Source of the DNA: Candidatus Desulfolinea nitratireducens
Lineage (GTDB): Bacteria; Chloroflexota; Anaerolineae; Anaerolineales; Villigracilaceae
DNA length: 49,128 bases
Direction of reading: 5' to 3'
Assembly (NCBI GenBank): GCA_014382535.1
Contig: JACNJN010000113.1
Location: forward strand, 1 to 49,128
The notes under the pieces are model-generated. The model did not search any database and had not been told where the DNA came from. It saw nothing but the letters and a program-made list of their open reading frames with translations. How positions within the stretch are numbered: position 1 is the first letter of the stretch; each line of letters opens with the position of its first letter. Positions 24,417 through 31,117 of this stretch are shown here, piece after piece. The translations under genes were made by a program, and so were the position numbers.

Positions 24417-24457
24417 TTTCTTTGTCGTCGAGATTGATTCATCGGAGGAGGTTGCCA

Positions 24458-25654
24458 ATGTCTGCAAGAAGAGGTGTGATCGCAATTCTAACTGGTGGGG
24501 GAGATGTCCCTGGTCTGAACCCAGCCATTCGGGCAGTCACGATTCGGGCGCTGCGTGAGGGATTTCAGGTAATCGGAATCCGGCGCGGCTGGGCGGGTAT
24601 GGTAGACATTATTCGCGATAAAAAAGCGGATAATAGTAATAATTACCAGATTCTGACGAGAGAAATTGTTAATAGGGCAGGCCGAACAGGGGGGACCTTT
24701 TTACATACATCGCGGACAAAGCCCAGTCATGTAAAAAAAGCGGATATCCCTGAGCATCTGCAAGATACGTATTTGGAAGATGATAACGACCTGACTGCTG
24801 AAGTCCTCAAGAATCTGGAATATCTCAATATTGATTACCTGATTCCTATTGGGGGGGATGATACGCTCAGTTATGGTGTCCGCTTATGTCAGGAGGGGGT
24901 TAAGGTTGTCGCCATCCCCAAGACGATGGACAACGATGTCCCCGGTACAGATTATTGCATCGGCTTCAGCACATGCGTAACCCGCACCATTGCCCTGACA
25001 AATAATCTGCGTACTGTTGCAGGTTCACACGAGCGCTTTCTTATTTTGGAGGTTTTTGGGCGGTATGCAGGCTTTTCCGCATTGCTCCCAACGATGGCTG
25101 GGGCAGCCAATCGATGTGTGGTCCCGGAGCATCGTTTCAATATTGAGAAACTTACTGAGCTATTATCTGAAGATCGGATGAATAACCCCAGTCGTTACTC
25201 AATCGCCTTGATCTCCGAAGGTGCGATGTTTGAAGGGGGAGAGATGATCTTTGAGAACAGGACAACAGATGCTTATGGCCATGCAAAATTGGGTGGCATC
25301 GGTGATCTGGTTTCTGATGAAATAAAAAAAATATCCCCAAAGTTCAATAATGGGAAGAAGGTCAGTGTGGTCAACCAAAAATTGGGTTATATGGTTCGGG
25401 GAGGCGACCCCGATGCAATCGATTCGATTGTTCCGATGGCATTTGGTAATCTGGCATTGGATTTGATCCTGAAGGGATTATATGGTCGCCTGGTGGTCTT
25501 GAAAAACGGACGCTACGACAATATGCCTATCGAAGTTGTGACCAGCTCAAAAAAATTGGTGGATGTGAAGCAGTTTTATAATACCGACCGATATCGCCCC
25601 AATTACGAGAGTTTTGAAATGAAACCATTATTCATTATGACCAGTGAGCTATAA
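24458..25654 (+). CDS. 6-phosphofructokinase, probably PPi-dependent
   Basis: This 398-residue protein is a phosphofructokinase (GVIAILTGGGDVPGLNPAIRA). Two positions that separate donors point to pyrophosphate: GGDD at 132-135, where ATP enzymes have GGDG, and PKTMDND at 154-160 with the lysine of PPi enzymes. The catalytic aspartate is D158. ERFLILEVFGRYAG matches the fructose-6-phosphate site. A PPi enzyme works in both glycolysis and gluconeogenesis and saves ATP. GGAGGAGG is six bases before the ATG. It is followed four bases later by the selenoprotein gene. Confidence 0.85.
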   Translation: MSARRGVIAILTGGGDVPGLNPAIRAVTIRALREGFQVIGIRRGWAGMVDIIRDKKADNSNNYQILTREIVNRAGRTGGTFLHTSRTKPSHVKKADIPEHLQDTYLEDDNDLTAEVLKNLEYLNIDYLIPIGGDDTLSYGVRLCQEGVKVVAIPKTMDNDVPGTDYCIGFSTCVTRTIALTNNLRTVAGSHERFLILEVFGRYAGFSALLPTMAGAANRCVVPEHRFNIEKLTELLSEDRMNNPSRYSIALISEGAMFEGGEMIFENRTTDAYGHAKLGGIGDLVSDEIKKISPKFNNGKKVSVVNQKLGYMVRGGDPDAIDSIVPMAFGNLALDLILKGLYGRLVVLKNGRYDNMPIEVVTSSKKLVDVKQFYNTDRYRPNYESFEMKPLFIMTSEL

Positions 25655-25658
25655 AATT

Positions 25659-26282
25659 ATGCTGGAAACCAGAATTACAGATCGAAAATCCGCTTCAAGA
25701 TGGCAAAAAAAATATGATCCCCAGGCCCCGCGTGTGGGCGACCTCGCCCCGGATTTCGAGTTGCGTGATGCGCATGGGCAGAATCCTGTCCGCTTATCTG
25801 ATTTCCGCAATAAAAAACCCGTTGCCCTGATCTTTGGTAGCTTTACCTGACCGCCCTATGTCAAAGGGACCGTAGGTCTCACAGAGTTATATGCTGAATA
25901 TCATGAACAAGTTGCTTTTCTGCCAATTTATATCCGTGAGGCACACCCCGTGGATGGCTGGTGGTTTGGCAAAGGGGTTCCGAAAAGGATGATGGGATTC
26001 TATTCGCCGAAGGTGGCAATGGATATCTACGATCCGAACACGATCGAGGAACGGCGGCAGGTTGCAGGCGCGTGCGAAAAATCCCTATCCTATGGTGTCC
26101 GGACCTATGTCGATGAGATGGATGATGCCGTCAACAAGGCCTATGCAGGTTGGCCGACACGCCTGTATCTAATTGATACGGATGGAGTAGTGGTCTATGC
26201 AGCGGGAGTAGGTCCTTATGATTTTCATCCAAAAAAACTTAAAGAAGCCATTGCAACATATTTGGTTAAAACAAAGAGCTAA
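25659..26282 (+). CDS. Iodothyronine deiodinase-like selenoprotein (UGA read as selenocysteine)
   Basis: Reading the TGA at 25848-25850 as selenocysteine gives one continuous 207-residue protein with U64 in GSFT-U-PPY. This matches the active site of the deiodinase family (GSCT-U-P in vertebrates) within a thioredoxin-like fold, opened by VGDLAPDFELRDAHG and LSDFRNKKPVALIFG. The family's conserved REAHPVDGWW follows with its histidine, then the closing GWPTRLYLIDTDGVVVYAAGVGPYDFHP. Both halves are in the same frame, and family similarity crosses the stop. Bacterial members have no known thyroid substrate, so a redox or reductive dehalogenation role is only inferred. The ATG at 25659 lacks a clear ribosome site and may be coupled to pfk; a GTG at 25644 is an alternative. 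Confidence 0.88.
25848..25880 (+). promoter_or_regulatory. Bacterial SECIS candidate just after the UGA
   Basis: GGGACC (25866-25871) pairs with GGTCTC (25875-25880), six pairs with one G:U, around the loop GTA. There are 21 bases between the UGA and the loop and the loop begins with G. These fit the usual description of bacterial SECIS elements: a small apical loop with an early G, some 16-37 bases from the UGA, inside the coding region where SelB can bind. Confidence 0.75.
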
Positions 26283-26288
26283 TTCTAT

Positions 26289-26645
26289 ATGCATGAATTA
26301 CCTGTAGCCGAGTCAATTCTTAGTATTGTTTTGAAACATGCAGAAGAGGCGCAGGCAACTCAGATCACTGATTTAAATATAGTGATCGGGCAACTTGCGA
26401 GCGTGATTGATGATTCGGTCCAATTCTATTGGGATATTTTGAGCAAGGATACCATTGCCGAGGGGGCACAATTGCATTTCCAGCGAGTGCCAACCCAGAT
26501 GCTTTGCCTGGATTGTAATCATGCGTATAAACCTGCCGATGGTGAAATGGCTTGTCCCTTATGCGATGGGGTTCTGATCAAGATTTTGAAAGGCGAAGAA
26601 TTTTACCTTGACTCGATCGAGATCAAGACGGAGGATGAGGAATGA
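26289..26645 (+). CDS. hypA: Hydrogenase nickel-insertion protein HypA
   Basis: This 118-residue protein delivers nickel to the NiFe-hydrogenase large subunit. The N-terminal MHELP with nickel-binding H2 is present, and the zinc site is formed by C73, C76, C89 and C92 (CLDC, CPLC). It begins six bases after the selenoprotein stop and overlaps hypB by four bases (ATGA). No strong ribosome site precedes it. Confidence 0.93.
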   Translation: MHELPVAESILSIVLKHAEEAQATQITDLNIVIGQLASVIDDSVQFYWDILSKDTIAEGAQLHFQRVPTQMLCLDCNHAYKPADGEMACPLCDGVLIKILKGEEFYLDSIEIKTEDEE

Positions 26646-27301
26646 CCAAAAAAGTATCTGTAGTAGAAAAGATACTCAGCGCGAATGACCAATTGGCTGT
26701 AGAAAATCGTTCTCGTTTGGACGAAGCCGGTGTTTTTGCAATCAATATTATGGCCTCTCCCGGTGCAGGTAAGACCTCACTGATCGAGCAAACCCTGCCC
26801 AGGCTGAGTGAGAAGTTTCGTGTGGCTGTTGTAGACGGTGATATCGCTACCAGCATTGATGCCGATCGTGCTTCTGAGGCTGGTGCGCTGGCCGCCATTC
26901 AGATCAACACGGGTGGAAATTGTCATCTGGATGCCGTTATGCTCAAACAGGCGCTTGACCAGCTTGACTTGAAGGATTTCGATCTTTTATTGGTGGAGAA
27001 TGTTGGCAACCTCGTTTGCCCGTCCAACTTTCCCCTGGGTACGCATAAAAGCATCCTTGTGGCATCTGTTCCTGAAGGCGATGACAAGCCTTATAAATAC
27101 CCCGGTATGTACAGGGGTGTGGACGCGCTGATCATTAATAAAATTGACCTGATGCCTTATATTCCCTTCAAAATGGATTATTTTCGACGTGGCGTTGAAA
27201 TACTCAATGCCGGTTTGATCACTTTTCCCATCTCCTGCACTACTCAAGAAGGTGTGGATGAATGGATTAATTGGATAATCGAAAACGTCGAAGATAAATA
27301 A
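26642..27301 (+). CDS. hypB: Hydrogenase nickel-incorporation GTPase HypB
   Basis: This 219-residue GTPase works with HypA in nickel insertion. The P-loop ASPGAGKTSL is at about 38-47, the metal-binding GGNCHLDA (C94, H95) is present, and NKIDLMPYIPF gives the guanine-specificity motif. It lacks both the N-terminal CxxCGC nickel site and the His-rich tract of some homologues, so it is the minimal form. GGAGGATGAGG before the start lies in the hypA end. Confidence 0.93.
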   Translation: MTKKVSVVEKILSANDQLAVENRSRLDEAGVFAINIMASPGAGKTSLIEQTLPRLSEKFRVAVVDGDIATSIDADRASEAGALAAIQINTGGNCHLDAVMLKQALDQLDLKDFDLLLVENVGNLVCPSNFPLGTHKSILVASVPEGDDKPYKYPGMYRGVDALIINKIDLMPYIPFKMDYFRRGVEILNAGLITFPISCTTQEGVDEWINWIIENVEDK

Positions 27302-27306
27302 AATAT

Positions 27307-27354
27307 TGTAGTAGCGACTTTAGTCGCTTATGAACGGCTGAAGCCGTGACTACA
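27307..27354 (+). repeat. Three-way-junction palindromic element between hypB and hypF
   Basis: TGTAGT (27307-27312) pairs with ACTACA (27349-27354). Between them stand two more hairpins: AGCGAC/GTCGCT (27313-27328, loop TTTA) and ACGGCT/AGCCGT (27334-27347, loop GA). Together they fold as a closed three-way junction of about 48 bases. It fills most of the gap and ends 13 bases before the hypF ATG, which has no ribosome site. It looks like a small mobile palindromic element rather than a terminator, as no T-run follows. Confidence 0.75.
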
Positions 27355-27367
27355 GTTTGTACTAGCT

Positions 27368-29656
27368 ATGACAAAACAAACGGGTCTCCGCATCCATATC
27401 ACAGGCGTTGTTCAGGGAGTTGGTTTTCGCCCCTTCGTGTATGGGCTGGCGACTCGTTTCCAATTAAATGGGTGGGTGCGGAATACATCTGCAGGGGTGA
27501 ATATTGAAGTGGATGGGGAAGCAGCTGTGTTGGATGAATTTACCAAAGCTCTGCTGGATGAAGCCCCGCCACTTTCCCTTATCGATGAACTTACCGCAAC
27601 GCCCCAGGCCCTAAATGGCTTCCGGGGATTTGAAATTGTCCACTCTGAAGCGATTGCGGACGCCTTTCAGCCTATTTCCCCGGATGTAAGCATTTGCCCG
27701 GATTGTCTCCGTGAACTCTTTGATCCCGAAGATCATCGCTATCGTTATCCTTTTATCAATTGCACCAACTGTGGCCCGCGTTTTACGATCATCAAAGATA
27801 TTCCCTATGACCGCCCAGAAACGACAATGGCGCCTTTCCCCATGTGCGGGACTTGCGCCAGCGAATACAAGGATCCGTTGGACAGACGTTTTCACGCCCA
27901 GCCGGTCGCCTGCCCAGATTGCGGGCCAAAGGTTTGGTTGGAAATCGTAGGGGCGAACGGCCGTTCGCCTTTACAGAGAAACGTAGCCATCCTCGAAACC
28001 CAAAAACTTCTGGGTCAAGGCAAAATCCTTGCCATCAAAGGTCTCGGTGGTTTTCATCTTGCCTGTGATGCAACAAATGCCGCTGCGGTCAGTGAGTTGC
28101 GTCGGCGAAAGTTACGCGTGGATAAACCTTTTGCATTGATGATGCCAGATATTGCCACCGTCGAAAAACATTGTTTTTTAGATGAGACTGAGCGTGAGCT
28201 GCTCAAATCCATTGCTCGACCGATTGTTCTCCTCCAACGCCGACCGGAGTCACCGATTGCGCGCGAAATCGCTCCCCGACAGGATTCGATTGGCGTTATG
28301 CTCCCTTATACGCCCTTGCATTATTTGATCTTTGACGAAAACGCACAATTTGATGCGCTCGTAATGACAAGCGGCAATTTGAGTGAAGAACCAATTGCCT
28401 ACACAAACGAAGATGCTCGTGAGCGACTTTCTTCTTTGGCCGACGCCTTCCTGATGCACGACCGTGATATTCATATCCGCTGTGATGATTCGGTTGCAAG
28501 GGTGGTTGAAAAGGGAATATATCCATTACGACGAAGCCGCGGCTATACTCCTTTCCCGATCAAATTGCCCTGGGAGGTACCAGCATTGCTTGCCACTGGC
28601 GCTGAATTGAAGAATGCTTTTTGTATCACCAATCAGAAATACGCATTCCTCAGCCACCATATCGGGGATCTGGAAAATTACGAAACCCTGCAATCCTTTG
28701 AAGAGGGCGTATCCCATTTTGAGAAACTATTTCGGGTAAAACCGGAAGCGATTGCCTATGACGCGCATCCCAATTACCTGACGACGCGTTATGCTCAAGA
28801 ACGGACGGAACGGGATAACGTAAAAACGGTAGCTATTCAACATCATCATGCCCATATCGCCTCCTGCATGGCAGAGAACGGCCTGGCGGGCGATGAGCGT
28901 GTAATAGGGGTGGCCCTCGATGGCACGGGCTACGGCGATGATGGCAATATTTGGGGCGGGGAATTTTTACTGGCAGATTATGCCGGTTATAAGCGTGTTA
29001 CTCACCTGGAATATTTCCCGTTGGCAGGTGGCGATGCAGCCACAAAACGCCCATCGCGTACCGCATTGGGCTTGCTCTGGCAGCTTGGCCTGGATTGGGA
29101 TGCAAACCTCGCCTCTGTACAGGATCAATGCTCAGAAGAACGGATGGCCTTACGCGTTCAATTGGAACGAAAGCTGAATACGCCGCTGACTTCGAGCATG
29201 GGCCGTCTCTTTGATGCCGCAGCGGCTCTGGCGGGCGTACGGCAACGAGTCAATTATGAGGCACAGGCCGCGATTGAGTTTGAGGCTTTGGCGGATGATA
29301 CCGAAATGGGTAGCTATAATTTTGATGGCAGCAATGCTGAGATTCGGGTGCGCGCCGCTATCGAATCGCTGATTGCAGATTCGCTGAATGATGTCCCCAT
29401 CCCGGTCATTTCCGCTCGATTTCATAATGGTATCGTCAATATGGTTGCTGAAATTTGTATCAGACTACGTGAAAAGAGCGGATTAAATACAGTTGCCTTA
29501 AGTGGTGGTGTTTGGCAAAATAGATACATTCTAACCCGCACTTTGAAAAAGCTTCGTGAGGATGATTTCGAAGTTCTCATTCATCGCCAGGTTCCGGCAA
29601 ATGATGGCGGGCTGGCGTTGGGGCAGGCTGCGATTGCGAGTTGGAAGTTGAAATGA
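27368..29656 (+). CDS. hypF: Carbamoyltransferase HypF
   Basis: This 762-residue protein makes the cyanide ligands of the NiFe site from carbamoyl phosphate, passing the carbamoyl group to HypE. Domains in order are an acylphosphatase domain (GVVQGVGFRPFVY, about 13-25), two zinc fingers (CPDC ... CTNC and CGTC ... CPDC, about 110-190), a YrdC-like domain (GKILAIKGLGGFHLACDATN, then RRSRGYTPFPI) and a Kae1-like domain (IQHHHAHIASCMAENG, SGGVWQN). A palindromic element is inserted in frame at residues 194-203, between the zinc fingers and YrdC. The start has no Shine-Dalgarno. Confidence 0.95.
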   Translation: MTKQTGLRIHITGVVQGVGFRPFVYGLATRFQLNGWVRNTSAGVNIEVDGEAAVLDEFTKALLDEAPPLSLIDELTATPQALNGFRGFEIVHSEAIADAFQPISPDVSICPDCLRELFDPEDHRYRYPFINCTNCGPRFTIIKDIPYDRPETTMAPFPMCGTCASEYKDPLDRRFHAQPVACPDCGPKVWLEIVGANGRSPLQRNVAILETQKLLGQGKILAIKGLGGFHLACDATNAAAVSELRRRKLRVDKPFALMMPDIATVEKHCFLDETERELLKSIARPIVLLQRRPESPIAREIAPRQDSIGVMLPYTPLHYLIFDENAQFDALVMTSGNLSEEPIAYTNEDARERLSSLADAFLMHDRDIHIRCDDSVARVVEKGIYPLRRSRGYTPFPIKLPWEVPALLATGAELKNAFCITNQKYAFLSHHIGDLENYETLQSFEEGVSHFEKLFRVKPEAIAYDAHPNYLTTRYAQERTERDNVKTVAIQHHHAHIASCMAENGLAGDERVIGVALDGTGYGDDGNIWGGEFLLADYAGYKRVTHLEYFPLAGGDAATKRPSRTALGLLWQLGLDWDANLASVQDQCSEERMALRVQLERKLNTPLTSSMGRLFDAAAALAGVRQRVNYEAQAAIEFEALADDTEMGSYNFDGSNAEIRVRAAIESLIADSLNDVPIPVISARFHNGIVNMVAEICIRLREKSGLNTVALSGGVWQNRYILTRTLKKLREDDFEVLIHRQVPANDGGLALGQAAIASWKLK
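27947..27974 (+). repeat. 28-base palindrome inserted in frame in hypF
   Basis: The centre, GGCGAACGGCCGTTCGCC (27952-27969), is a perfect 18-base palindrome. The pairing runs out to GTAG (27947) and TTAC (27974) with two G:T wobbles. It encodes VGANGRSPLQ in the linker between zinc-finger and YrdC domains, a place where insertion should be tolerated. Confidence 0.75.
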
Positions 29657-29660
29657 AATT

Positions 29661-29738
29661 ACCACAAAGACACGAAGTTCACAAAGGATTTCTCTGTGAA
29701 CACAAAGAATCTCTCTGTGCTTTTTGTGTCTCAGTGGT
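29661..29738 (+). repeat. Complex inverted repeat between hypF and hypC
   Basis: ACCACAAAGACAC (29661-29673) pairs with GTGTCTCAGTGGT (29726-29738) with two mismatches. Inside, GTTCACA (29677-29683) pairs exactly with TGTGAAC (29695-29701). The interior repeats the words ACACAAAGA and TCTCTGTG. It fills nearly the whole 100-base gap and resembles dispersed intergenic repeats. hypC follows 19 bases later with a GGAG site. Confidence 0.6.
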
Positions 29739-29756
29739 GAAAAATTGGAGATAATT

Positions 29757-30026
29757 ATGTGTCTTGGCGTTCCAGGAAAAATTATTGAAGTCACCGAAAA
29801 GAACGGTCTGAGGATGGCGCAGGTGGATTTTGGGGGTATTGTTCGCGAAGCTTGCCTGGAATATTTGCCCGAAGCCAATGTGGGCGATTATACGGTTATC
29901 CATGTTGGATTTGCGATCAGTCTTCTGAGCGAGGAAGAAGCCAAGGCCTCGTTGGAGATGCTGCAGGAAATTATTGATCTCGAAGATGAATTAGGCATAG
30001 GATATTCAACAGAAAAGATAAAGTGA
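29757..30026 (+). CDS. hypC: Hydrogenase maturation chaperone HypC
   Basis: This 89-residue protein has the essential N-terminal cysteine ([13 protein letters not shown]2), which carries the Fe(CN)2CO unit with HypD and binds the large-subunit precursor. [32 protein letters not shown] is typical. The start at 29757 is fixed by the family MCLG; an upstream frame extension is not used. GGAG lies ten bases upstream. Its stop overlaps the GTG of hypD. Confidence 0.94.
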
Positions 30027-31117
30027 AATATGTGACGGAGTATAGGGATGCGGAATTAGTGCGCGGGGTGATAGATGAGATCGCCCGCACAATAACGCGT
30101 CCCTGGACATTGATGGAGATCTGTGGGGGGCAGACTCATGCCATTGTTCGGCATGGGATTGATCAATTACTTCCACCAGAAATCGAATTGGTGCACGGAC
30201 CCGGATGTCCGGTTTGCGTGACACCACTCGAGCAGATCGATAGGGCCCTGGCGATTGCCGCCAAACCGGACGTGATCTTCTGCTCCTATGGGGATATGTT
30301 ACGTGTTCCCGGCTCGACGGTTGATCTCTTCTCCATTCGAGCGGCTGGCGGCGATGTGCGCGTAATTTACACGCCACTAGACGCGGTCCGCATTGCCAGG
30401 GATAATCCTGATAAACAGGTGGTATTTTTTGCGATCGGATTTGAGACCACCGCTCCCGCGAATGTGATGAGTGTTATCCAGGCAAAAAATCTCGGTTTGA
30501 AAAATTACAGTATTCTGGTCTCGCATGTATGCGTACCTCCAGCAACACATGCCATCCTAGGTTCACCTGATAATCGTGTGCAGGGTTTTTTGCTGGCGGG
30601 TCATGTTTGTGCCGTGATGGGATATTGGGAATATTCGCCCATTGCTGAGCAATATGGCATCCCAATGTCGGTGACCGGTTTCGAGCCGTTGGATATCGTG
30701 CAGGGCATTCTGGCAAATGTGCAGCAGTTGGAGGCGGGCAAAACGGATGTGGTGAATGCCTATCCGCGCGCGGTGACTTTTGACGGAAATAAACCTGCCC
30801 AGAAAATGATTGATAAGGTTTTTGTGGCATGTGACCGCAAATGGCGTGGCATTGGTACGATCCCCTCCAGTGGCTGGGAATTACGGCCTGAATTTGATGA
30901 ATTCAATGCCGAGAAGCGTTTTGATGTGGGTGAGATCACCACAGAAGAGTCACCCTTGTGCATTGCTGGCGAGATTCTACGCGGCTTGAAGAAACCGAAT
31001 GATTGTGTGGCATTTGGGAATGAGTGCAACCCAGAACACCCACTTGGGGCAACAATGGTTTCTACCGAGGGGGCTTGCGCAGCTTATTATAAATATGGAA
31101 GAGGGGTGGAGTTGTAA
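30023..31117 (+). CDS. hypD: Hydrogenase Fe-cofactor assembly protein HypD
   Basis: This 364-residue protein is the scaffold on which the iron-cyanide-carbonyl unit is built. It has [17 protein letters not shown] (C34), [11 protein letters not shown] (C62, C65), [12 protein letters not shown], and the C-terminal cluster region [29 protein letters not shown]. It starts with GTG at 30023 inside the hypC stop. No hypE follows; a bidirectional terminator ends the run. Confidence 0.95.

Follow-up and report, generated by a model that had tools for sequence, protein, structure and literature searches.

A probable deiodinase-family selenoprotein gene of Candidatus Desulfolinea nitratireducens with a conserved bacterial SECIS hairpin and a candidate resolving cysteine

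The gene and its setting

The window analysed here is a 49,128-nt stretch of DNA from Candidatus Desulfolinea nitratireducens, in which a frame opens with the ATG at 25659 and closes with the TAA ending at 26282 (Table 1). The sole in-frame stop between them is a TGA, which lies within the motif GSFT-U-PPY, with REAHPVDGWW further downstream. The sequence-only reading had described two frames of the same phase parted by this TGA alone, and direct reading of the sequence confirmed it. A listing of open reading frames at a threshold of 80 residues shows the downstream piece from 25950 only; the upstream piece has 63 codons, and ordinary gene callers would split the frame. No hydrophobic leader or membrane segment was found by eye in the 63 residues ahead of the proposed selenocysteine (Sec), and the protein has no PHROG match at E ≤ 0.01. 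Six candidate read-through TGA frames, this gene included, are present across the window, and the remaining five have no family likeness by eye.

The gene lies between a phosphofructokinase (PFK) gene and the hyp genes, as the sequence-only reading had placed it. Among the loci examined, this arrangement is confined to the genus, so the neighbours give little clue to function. Within the genus, the gene is present in five of nine genomes, one of which holds two copies. In genome G008, for which contamination is 6%, the PFK-selenoprotein-hypA cassette occurs twice (L010 and L019), either by true duplication or by mixing of two strains.

Table 1. Genes and features at the locus, in positions of the window
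Feature	Position	Strand	Remarks
Phosphofructokinase ORF (PF00365), upstream	24422–25654	+	4-base gap to the selenoprotein start; found in 6 of 6 genus loci
Deiodinase-like selenoprotein gene	25659–26282	+	207 codons, TGA counted as Sec; frame, PF00837, relatives
In-frame TGA, proposed selenocysteine codon (residue 64)	25848–25850	+	TGA in all 26 relatives; Sec machinery
Bacterial-type SECIS hairpin	25866–25880	+	Arms 25866–25871 and 25875–25880, loop 25872–25874; conserved, covarying stem
Codons of E94, A95 and H96	25938–25946	+	E94 and H96 align with Glu200 and His202 in the Dio3 active-site network
Codon of Cys139, proposed resolving cysteine	26073–26075	+	Model helix 129–143; counts in Sec and non-Sec forms
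hypA, downstream	26289–26645	+	6-base gap from the selenoprotein stop; found in 4 of 6 genus loci
hypB, hypF, hypC and hypD (hydrogenase maturation)	26642–31117	+	Same direction, after hypA

The in-frame UGA, its hairpin and the selenium machinery

To follow the TGA across species, we scanned one genome per species with six seed peptides, none of which covers the site. The scan yielded 27 loci, of which one (L057) was dropped for a match over 30 residues only, and all 26 remaining relatives carry TGA at the Sec codon. Thirteen of them are named as Anaerolineae, Anaerolineales or Anaerolineaceae, and a Chloroflexota name of some kind is attached to 19; the two nearest (77 and 73% identity) are Anaerolineae by name. 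In a sample of 100 genomes (the host's own and 99 relatives), which overlaps with the 26 relatives in that some genes are identical, 10 genomes had a match: eight carry nine TGA-bearing copies, and the other two gave weak, distant matches only, with Cys. The wider deiodinase-like family is sparse across genomes. A sample of 400 genomes from the phylum gave PF00837 matches in 11 (eight with TGA and three without). Matches were present in 9 of 398 genomes from the phylum of a Gammaproteobacteria record and in 10 of 84 from the phylum of a Poribacteria record, with none in 14 control genomes run beside the own-phylum and Gammaproteobacteria-record samples.

The close relatives read all have Sec at the site, rather than a sense codon other than Cys in a setting devoid of a selenium system, while more distant ones have Sec, Cys, Ser or Gly. 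The occurrence of the TGA in many different genomes makes a sequencing error there very unlikely. In L084 and L086 the Sec position holds Ser or Gly; some members of the wider family have therefore lost the redox residue. Four Cys forms from the Gammaproteobacteria-record phylum (L087, L089, L090 and L092; motif GSYSCPHH, open frames of 358–370 codons) are perhaps of the NF038285 type. Decayed copies were also observed: L067 (genome G378, contig C231) lacks the stretch of the UGA and hairpin and has a frame break and a TAG, and L108 and L109 have several stops each.

Bacterial SECIS elements are defined as hairpins right after the UGA, within the coding region, having a small apical loop with a G (PMC1088965). 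In the present gene the hairpin begins 15 bases past the TGA, with a GGGACC arm, a GTA loop and a GGTCTC arm forming six pairs (one G-U), and the loop G lies 22 bases past the UGA, in agreement with the earlier description of a six-pair hairpin with a GTA loop. That description had also called the hairpin a fitting SECIS, which is borne out across the relatives but is not significant in the single sequence, where the stability is unremarkable against dinucleotide shuffles (z -0.31, 70 of 200 equally stable) and synonymous recoding gave p 0.072. Among genes tested singly by recoding, 16 of 39 reached p < 0.05, and two fold less stably than their recodings do on average. When the stem was examined at a fixed distance in 35 main-clade genes, 193 of 210 stem cells were paired, compared with a mean of 98.3 (sd 5.9, maximum 117) in 2000 sets of synonymous recodings, and the full five-pair stem was present in 31 genes, compared with 0.8 on average in the recodings (maximum 5); none of these figures is a probability, because recodings and shuffles ignore the relatedness of the genes.

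Analysis of the same 35 genes revealed a G within the first two loop positions (family frame) in every one. The fourth stem pair is A-U in 24, G-C in 8, G-U in 2 and broken in 1; four genes (L012, L019, L052 and L053) have one mismatch in the five-pair stem, and the outer sixth pair fails in 13. Five measures were compared with 500 shuffles. Three of them (paired cells, cells altered on both sides, covariation score) exceeded every shuffle; the count of pairs altered on both sides was reached by 11, and the fifth measure, further pair types, was not above the shuffles (234 of 500 reach its value). The Gly at +6 is encoded by GGG in 29 of 30 cases, though GGC is the commonest Gly codon elsewhere in the 240-base stretches used. 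The codons are thus locked at stem-required positions, and the SECIS stem is conserved and covarying beyond the protein code. A chance hairpin was rejected on this conservation and covariation, although the single sequence is not significant. A second Sec clade (L068–L071, motif TUPPFRRQ) has its own hairpin of different sequence, which starts 11 to 13 bases after the UGA compared with mostly 14 to 16 in the main clade; none of these four hairpins reached p 0.05 singly.

The host genome (3.65 Mb in 223 contigs, 97.9% complete) was searched for the selenium machinery, and selA, selB, selC and selD were all found above their curated cut-offs. The tRNA-Sec on contig 213 scored 65.2 bits, with ARAGORN in agreement (anticodon tca), and the next seven matches to the tRNA-Sec model are tRNAs for Ser, Leu, Arg, Met and Tyr, none above 44.2 bits. 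The selA match (540.8 bits) is on the same contig as the tRNA-Sec, and selB (325.6 bits) covers positions 2–580 of a 581-position profile. The selD gene (245 bits) has an in-frame TGA of its own (ASCAGU), making it a selenoprotein gene itself; at genome contig C178:49636-50277 (L029) the assembly has a run of N inside it. Other long tRNAs come close to the tRNA-Sec cut-off of 47 bits, and we therefore counted scores of at least 63 bits as clear. Of the 26 genomes behind the 26 relatives, 25 reached the cut-off and 23 had at least 63 bits, leaving G744, G749 and G754 without a clear tRNA-Sec. In a sample of the class, 13 genomes matched the protein at E ≤ 1e-30 (one by the decayed L067), of which 11 reached the tRNA-Sec cut-off and G192 and G280 did not; such co-occurrence weighs little because most genomes of the class (239 of 298) reach that cut-off. 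Taken together, the conserved TGA, the sel genes and the conserved hairpin support the earlier reading as a selenoprotein very strongly, and the decoding of UGA codon 64 as selenocysteine is close to certain.

Family, fold and active-site residues

The joined protein matches PF00837 (T4_deiodinase) over residues 24–197 with 84 bits, against a cut-off of 27 (E 1.3e-23), so the family similarity crosses the TGA, as had been proposed from the sequence. A profile of 23 relatives searched against solved structures gave Dio3 (E 5.8e-29) and Dio2 (1.5e-22) as the sole matches at E ≤ 1e-5. Dio3 Sec170 stands opposite U64, in line with the statement that iodothyronine deiodinases have Sec at this place. 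The AlphaFold model has a mean pLDDT of 76.7, with values under 50 at residues 66–68 and 95–103. Foldseek placed Dio3 and Dio2 as its first two matches, and VIA-align gave Z scores of 17.1 for Dio2 (3.4 Å, 170 residues), 15.9 for Dio3 (3.4 Å, 166 residues) and 15.2 for AhpE (2.6 Å, 146 residues), Dio3 and AhpE being tied under its rule. Redoxin (40.4 bits, cut-off 26.6) and AhpC-TSA also match. The NCBIfam family NF038285 (deiodinase_rel), 'deiodinase family protein', reached 179.9 bits, below its curated cut-off of 250; its C-terminal half is matched (positions 175–344 of 347, on residues 23–202) and its N-terminal half is missing. A deiodinase-family fold is thus assigned with very little doubt.

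Comparison with Dio3, numbered by counting along alignments to 4tr3 and in agreement with the residues named in PMC7506546, revealed that Ser167 (S61), Thr169 (T63), Sec170 (U64), Tyr197 (Y91), Glu200 (E94), His202 (H96), Trp207 (W101), Arg225 (R132) and Arg260 (R168) are kept, while Cys168, His219, Cys239, Phe258 and Arg275 are replaced by F62, P126, V147, P166 and V184. We examined these positions in a group of 36 rows built by motif, which includes L082 and L085 from elsewhere on the tree and is without L042, L062 and L068–L071. S61 is present in 35 rows, W101 in 34, and R132 and R168 in 33 each, and the other kept residues occur in all 36. Position 126 is Pro in 31, His in 4 and a gap in 1, and position 184 is Leu in 20, Arg in 5, Gln in 4, Trp in 3, Ile in 2, Val in 1 and Lys in 1. 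In deiodinases, the Glu, both His, Ser, Thr and Tyr have been proposed as a proton relay (PMC11592359), with Glu200 and His202 of Dio3 placed in the active-site network (PMC7506546). The latter source ascribes a structural or substrate-binding role to His219 and a gating role for the amino-acid end of the hormone to Arg275, which is Lys in Dio2, and reports that Phe258Pro, the state found here at position 166, lowers Dio3 activity. Most of the relay is therefore kept, and His219 and the hormone-holding side are not. From these residues, deiodinase-like chemistry may be inferred for the bacterial protein.

The protein thus shares with the animal deiodinases (4tr3 Dio3 and 9h48 Dio2) a thioredoxin fold with an insertion loop, the motifs S-x-T-U-P-P-F/Y and EAHPxDGW, and the two Arg counterparts. 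It differs from them in the five replaced residues, in a SECIS within the coding region, theirs being in the 3'-UTR, and in having no membrane segment by eye before Sec. Proteins of this kind have been known since 2005, when Sec and Cys forms with bacterial SECIS elements were reported from the Sargasso Sea and a redox function unlike that of animal deiodinases was proposed (PMC1088965), and they appear in later surveys (PMC2398784, PMC9312934 and PMC13188914). The present gene is a further member; it shares with the 2005 family the PF00837 domain, an active site with Sec or Cys and a bacterial SECIS with a loop G. The motif is given as UxxC in PMC9312934 and PMC13188914, and the portions of PMC2398784 consulted give none. 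In contrast to UxxC, the residue three after Sec is Tyr67 here, and among 50 Sec rows it is Phe or Tyr in 48 and Cys in none. The newest survey describes the functions of such proteins as still largely open, and the matches listed, as judged by titles and abstract openings, included no study of what a bacterial member does.

Cys139 and candidate functions

Cys139 is located on helix 129–143 of the AlphaFold model and is present in 49 of the 53 Sec forms read and in none of the 11 Cys, Ser or Gly forms. The tree set of distinct proteins counts L052 and L101 as the same protein and excludes L055 (frameshifted after Sec) and L095; within it, 48 of 51 Sec forms and none of the 10 others have Cys139. 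The larger counts add L107, L072 and L095, read by eye. Both counts were made outside the fragments and decayed copies (L067, L094, L108 and L109), another thioredoxin (L075) and the homologues L091 and L105. The Sec forms lacking Cys139 are the distant L072 and L074, together with L099 and L100, which have apparent signal peptides by eye; L099 reads SCTU, with a Cys at the position of Dio3 Cys168. The Cys form L095 has no Cys at 139 and has one four residues, or one helix turn, earlier. The tree contains one independent pair of Sec and non-Sec forms on well-supported branches and four on the best tree. In 200 pairings, Cys139 went with Sec in 0.6, showed no difference in 0.4 and never went the opposite way, and the sign test is without power. 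We therefore keep the link between Cys139 and Sec as a proposal, the tree being too poor in independent changes for proof. In PtGPX5, the resolving Cys92 lies in the matching helix (PMC7506546). Resolution of the oxidised Sec by Cys139 is a tentative assignment, somewhat short of an even chance. It is put forward here as a new and testable idea; the text, figures aside, of the papers on the bacterial deiodinase-like family makes no mention of this residue in the portions consulted.

On this basis we propose a mechanism for the product, which belongs to the deiodinase family and has a predicted thioredoxin fold. There is good support for the reading of codon 64, a UGA, as Sec by the host's own SelA, SelB, SelC and SelD, with the hairpin 15 bases downstream directing the insertion. 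The protein may act as a selenol oxidoreductase. In such a cycle, Sec64 would attack an oxidised or halogenated substrate, while the network of Thr63, Tyr91, Glu94 and His96, common with animal deiodinases, would activate Sec and relay protons. The helix that follows the insertion loop carries Cys139, which could then attack Sec64; the resulting selenenylsulfide would be reduced by thioredoxin or a similar thiol. Thyroid hormone is unlikely as the substrate of the bacterial protein, and the candidates are a peroxide, a disulfide or a small organohalide. As a whole, the account of a real selenoprotein gene working as a Sec64 selenol oxidoreductase appears likely to us, the Cys139 step being the more tentative part.

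Several more specific or opposing explanations were weighed. The strongest is that the protein is a Sec peroxidase, a peroxide remover like peroxiredoxins or glutathione peroxidases in which the deiodinase similarity reflects ancestry only. The Redoxin and AhpC-TSA matches, the tie between AhpE and Dio3, the Pro at 166 in place of Phe258, and the shared fold with a possible resolving Cys in the helix that corresponds to that of PtGPX5 Cys92 (PMC7506546) all agree with it, but E94, H96, W101 and the deiodinase insertion loop with EAHPxDGW, which sets the protein apart from those families, are kept, and the sequence profile matches deiodinases only among solved structures; we regard this role as a serious contender that does not quite reach an even chance. 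That the protein is a Sec-dependent reductive dehalogenase, applying the chemistry of animal deiodinases to a small organohalide, is suggested by identical counterparts of Dio3 Ser167, Thr169, Tyr197, Glu200, His202 and Trp207. It is nevertheless unlikely, given the change of His219 to Pro and of Arg275 to Val and the lack of any gene neighbour hinting at organohalides. The fuller version, in which such a dehalogenase keeps most of the deiodinase relay and turns over through an internal Sec64-Cys139 selenenylsulfide, is more doubtful still; if it were true, animal deiodinases would have lost the helix Cys and either gained Cys168 beside Sec or come to rely on outside thiols.

A part in hydrogenase maturation or sugar metabolism might be read from the seat between the PFK gene and hypA, where the short gaps suggest one transcript and the genus loci keep the neighbours as listed in Table 1. 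However, the PFK and hypA neighbour clusters were joined to the gene in none of 33 other loci (ORFs of at least 100 residues; flanks of 1.5 to 6 kb, some ending at a contig edge), which makes this role very improbable, and a function read from gene neighbours was rejected. On the pseudogene reading, translation would really end at the TGA, leaving a broken gene or a peptide of 63 residues. This would fit the split expected from gene callers and the decayed copies in relatives, but we give it almost no weight, since the same TGA in all 26 relatives speaks against a nonsense mutation or sequencing error, the downstream protein and SECIS are conserved, and the genome holds the Sec genes.

The selenol oxidoreductase is our preferred reading. 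How the oxidised selenium is recycled in animal deiodinases is debated between Cys168 and Cys239 (PMC7506546). With no membrane anchor and one nearly invariant candidate resolving cysteine, the bacterial branch may make the chemistry of the family easier to study, and it could reveal the job of this fold before thyroid hormone.
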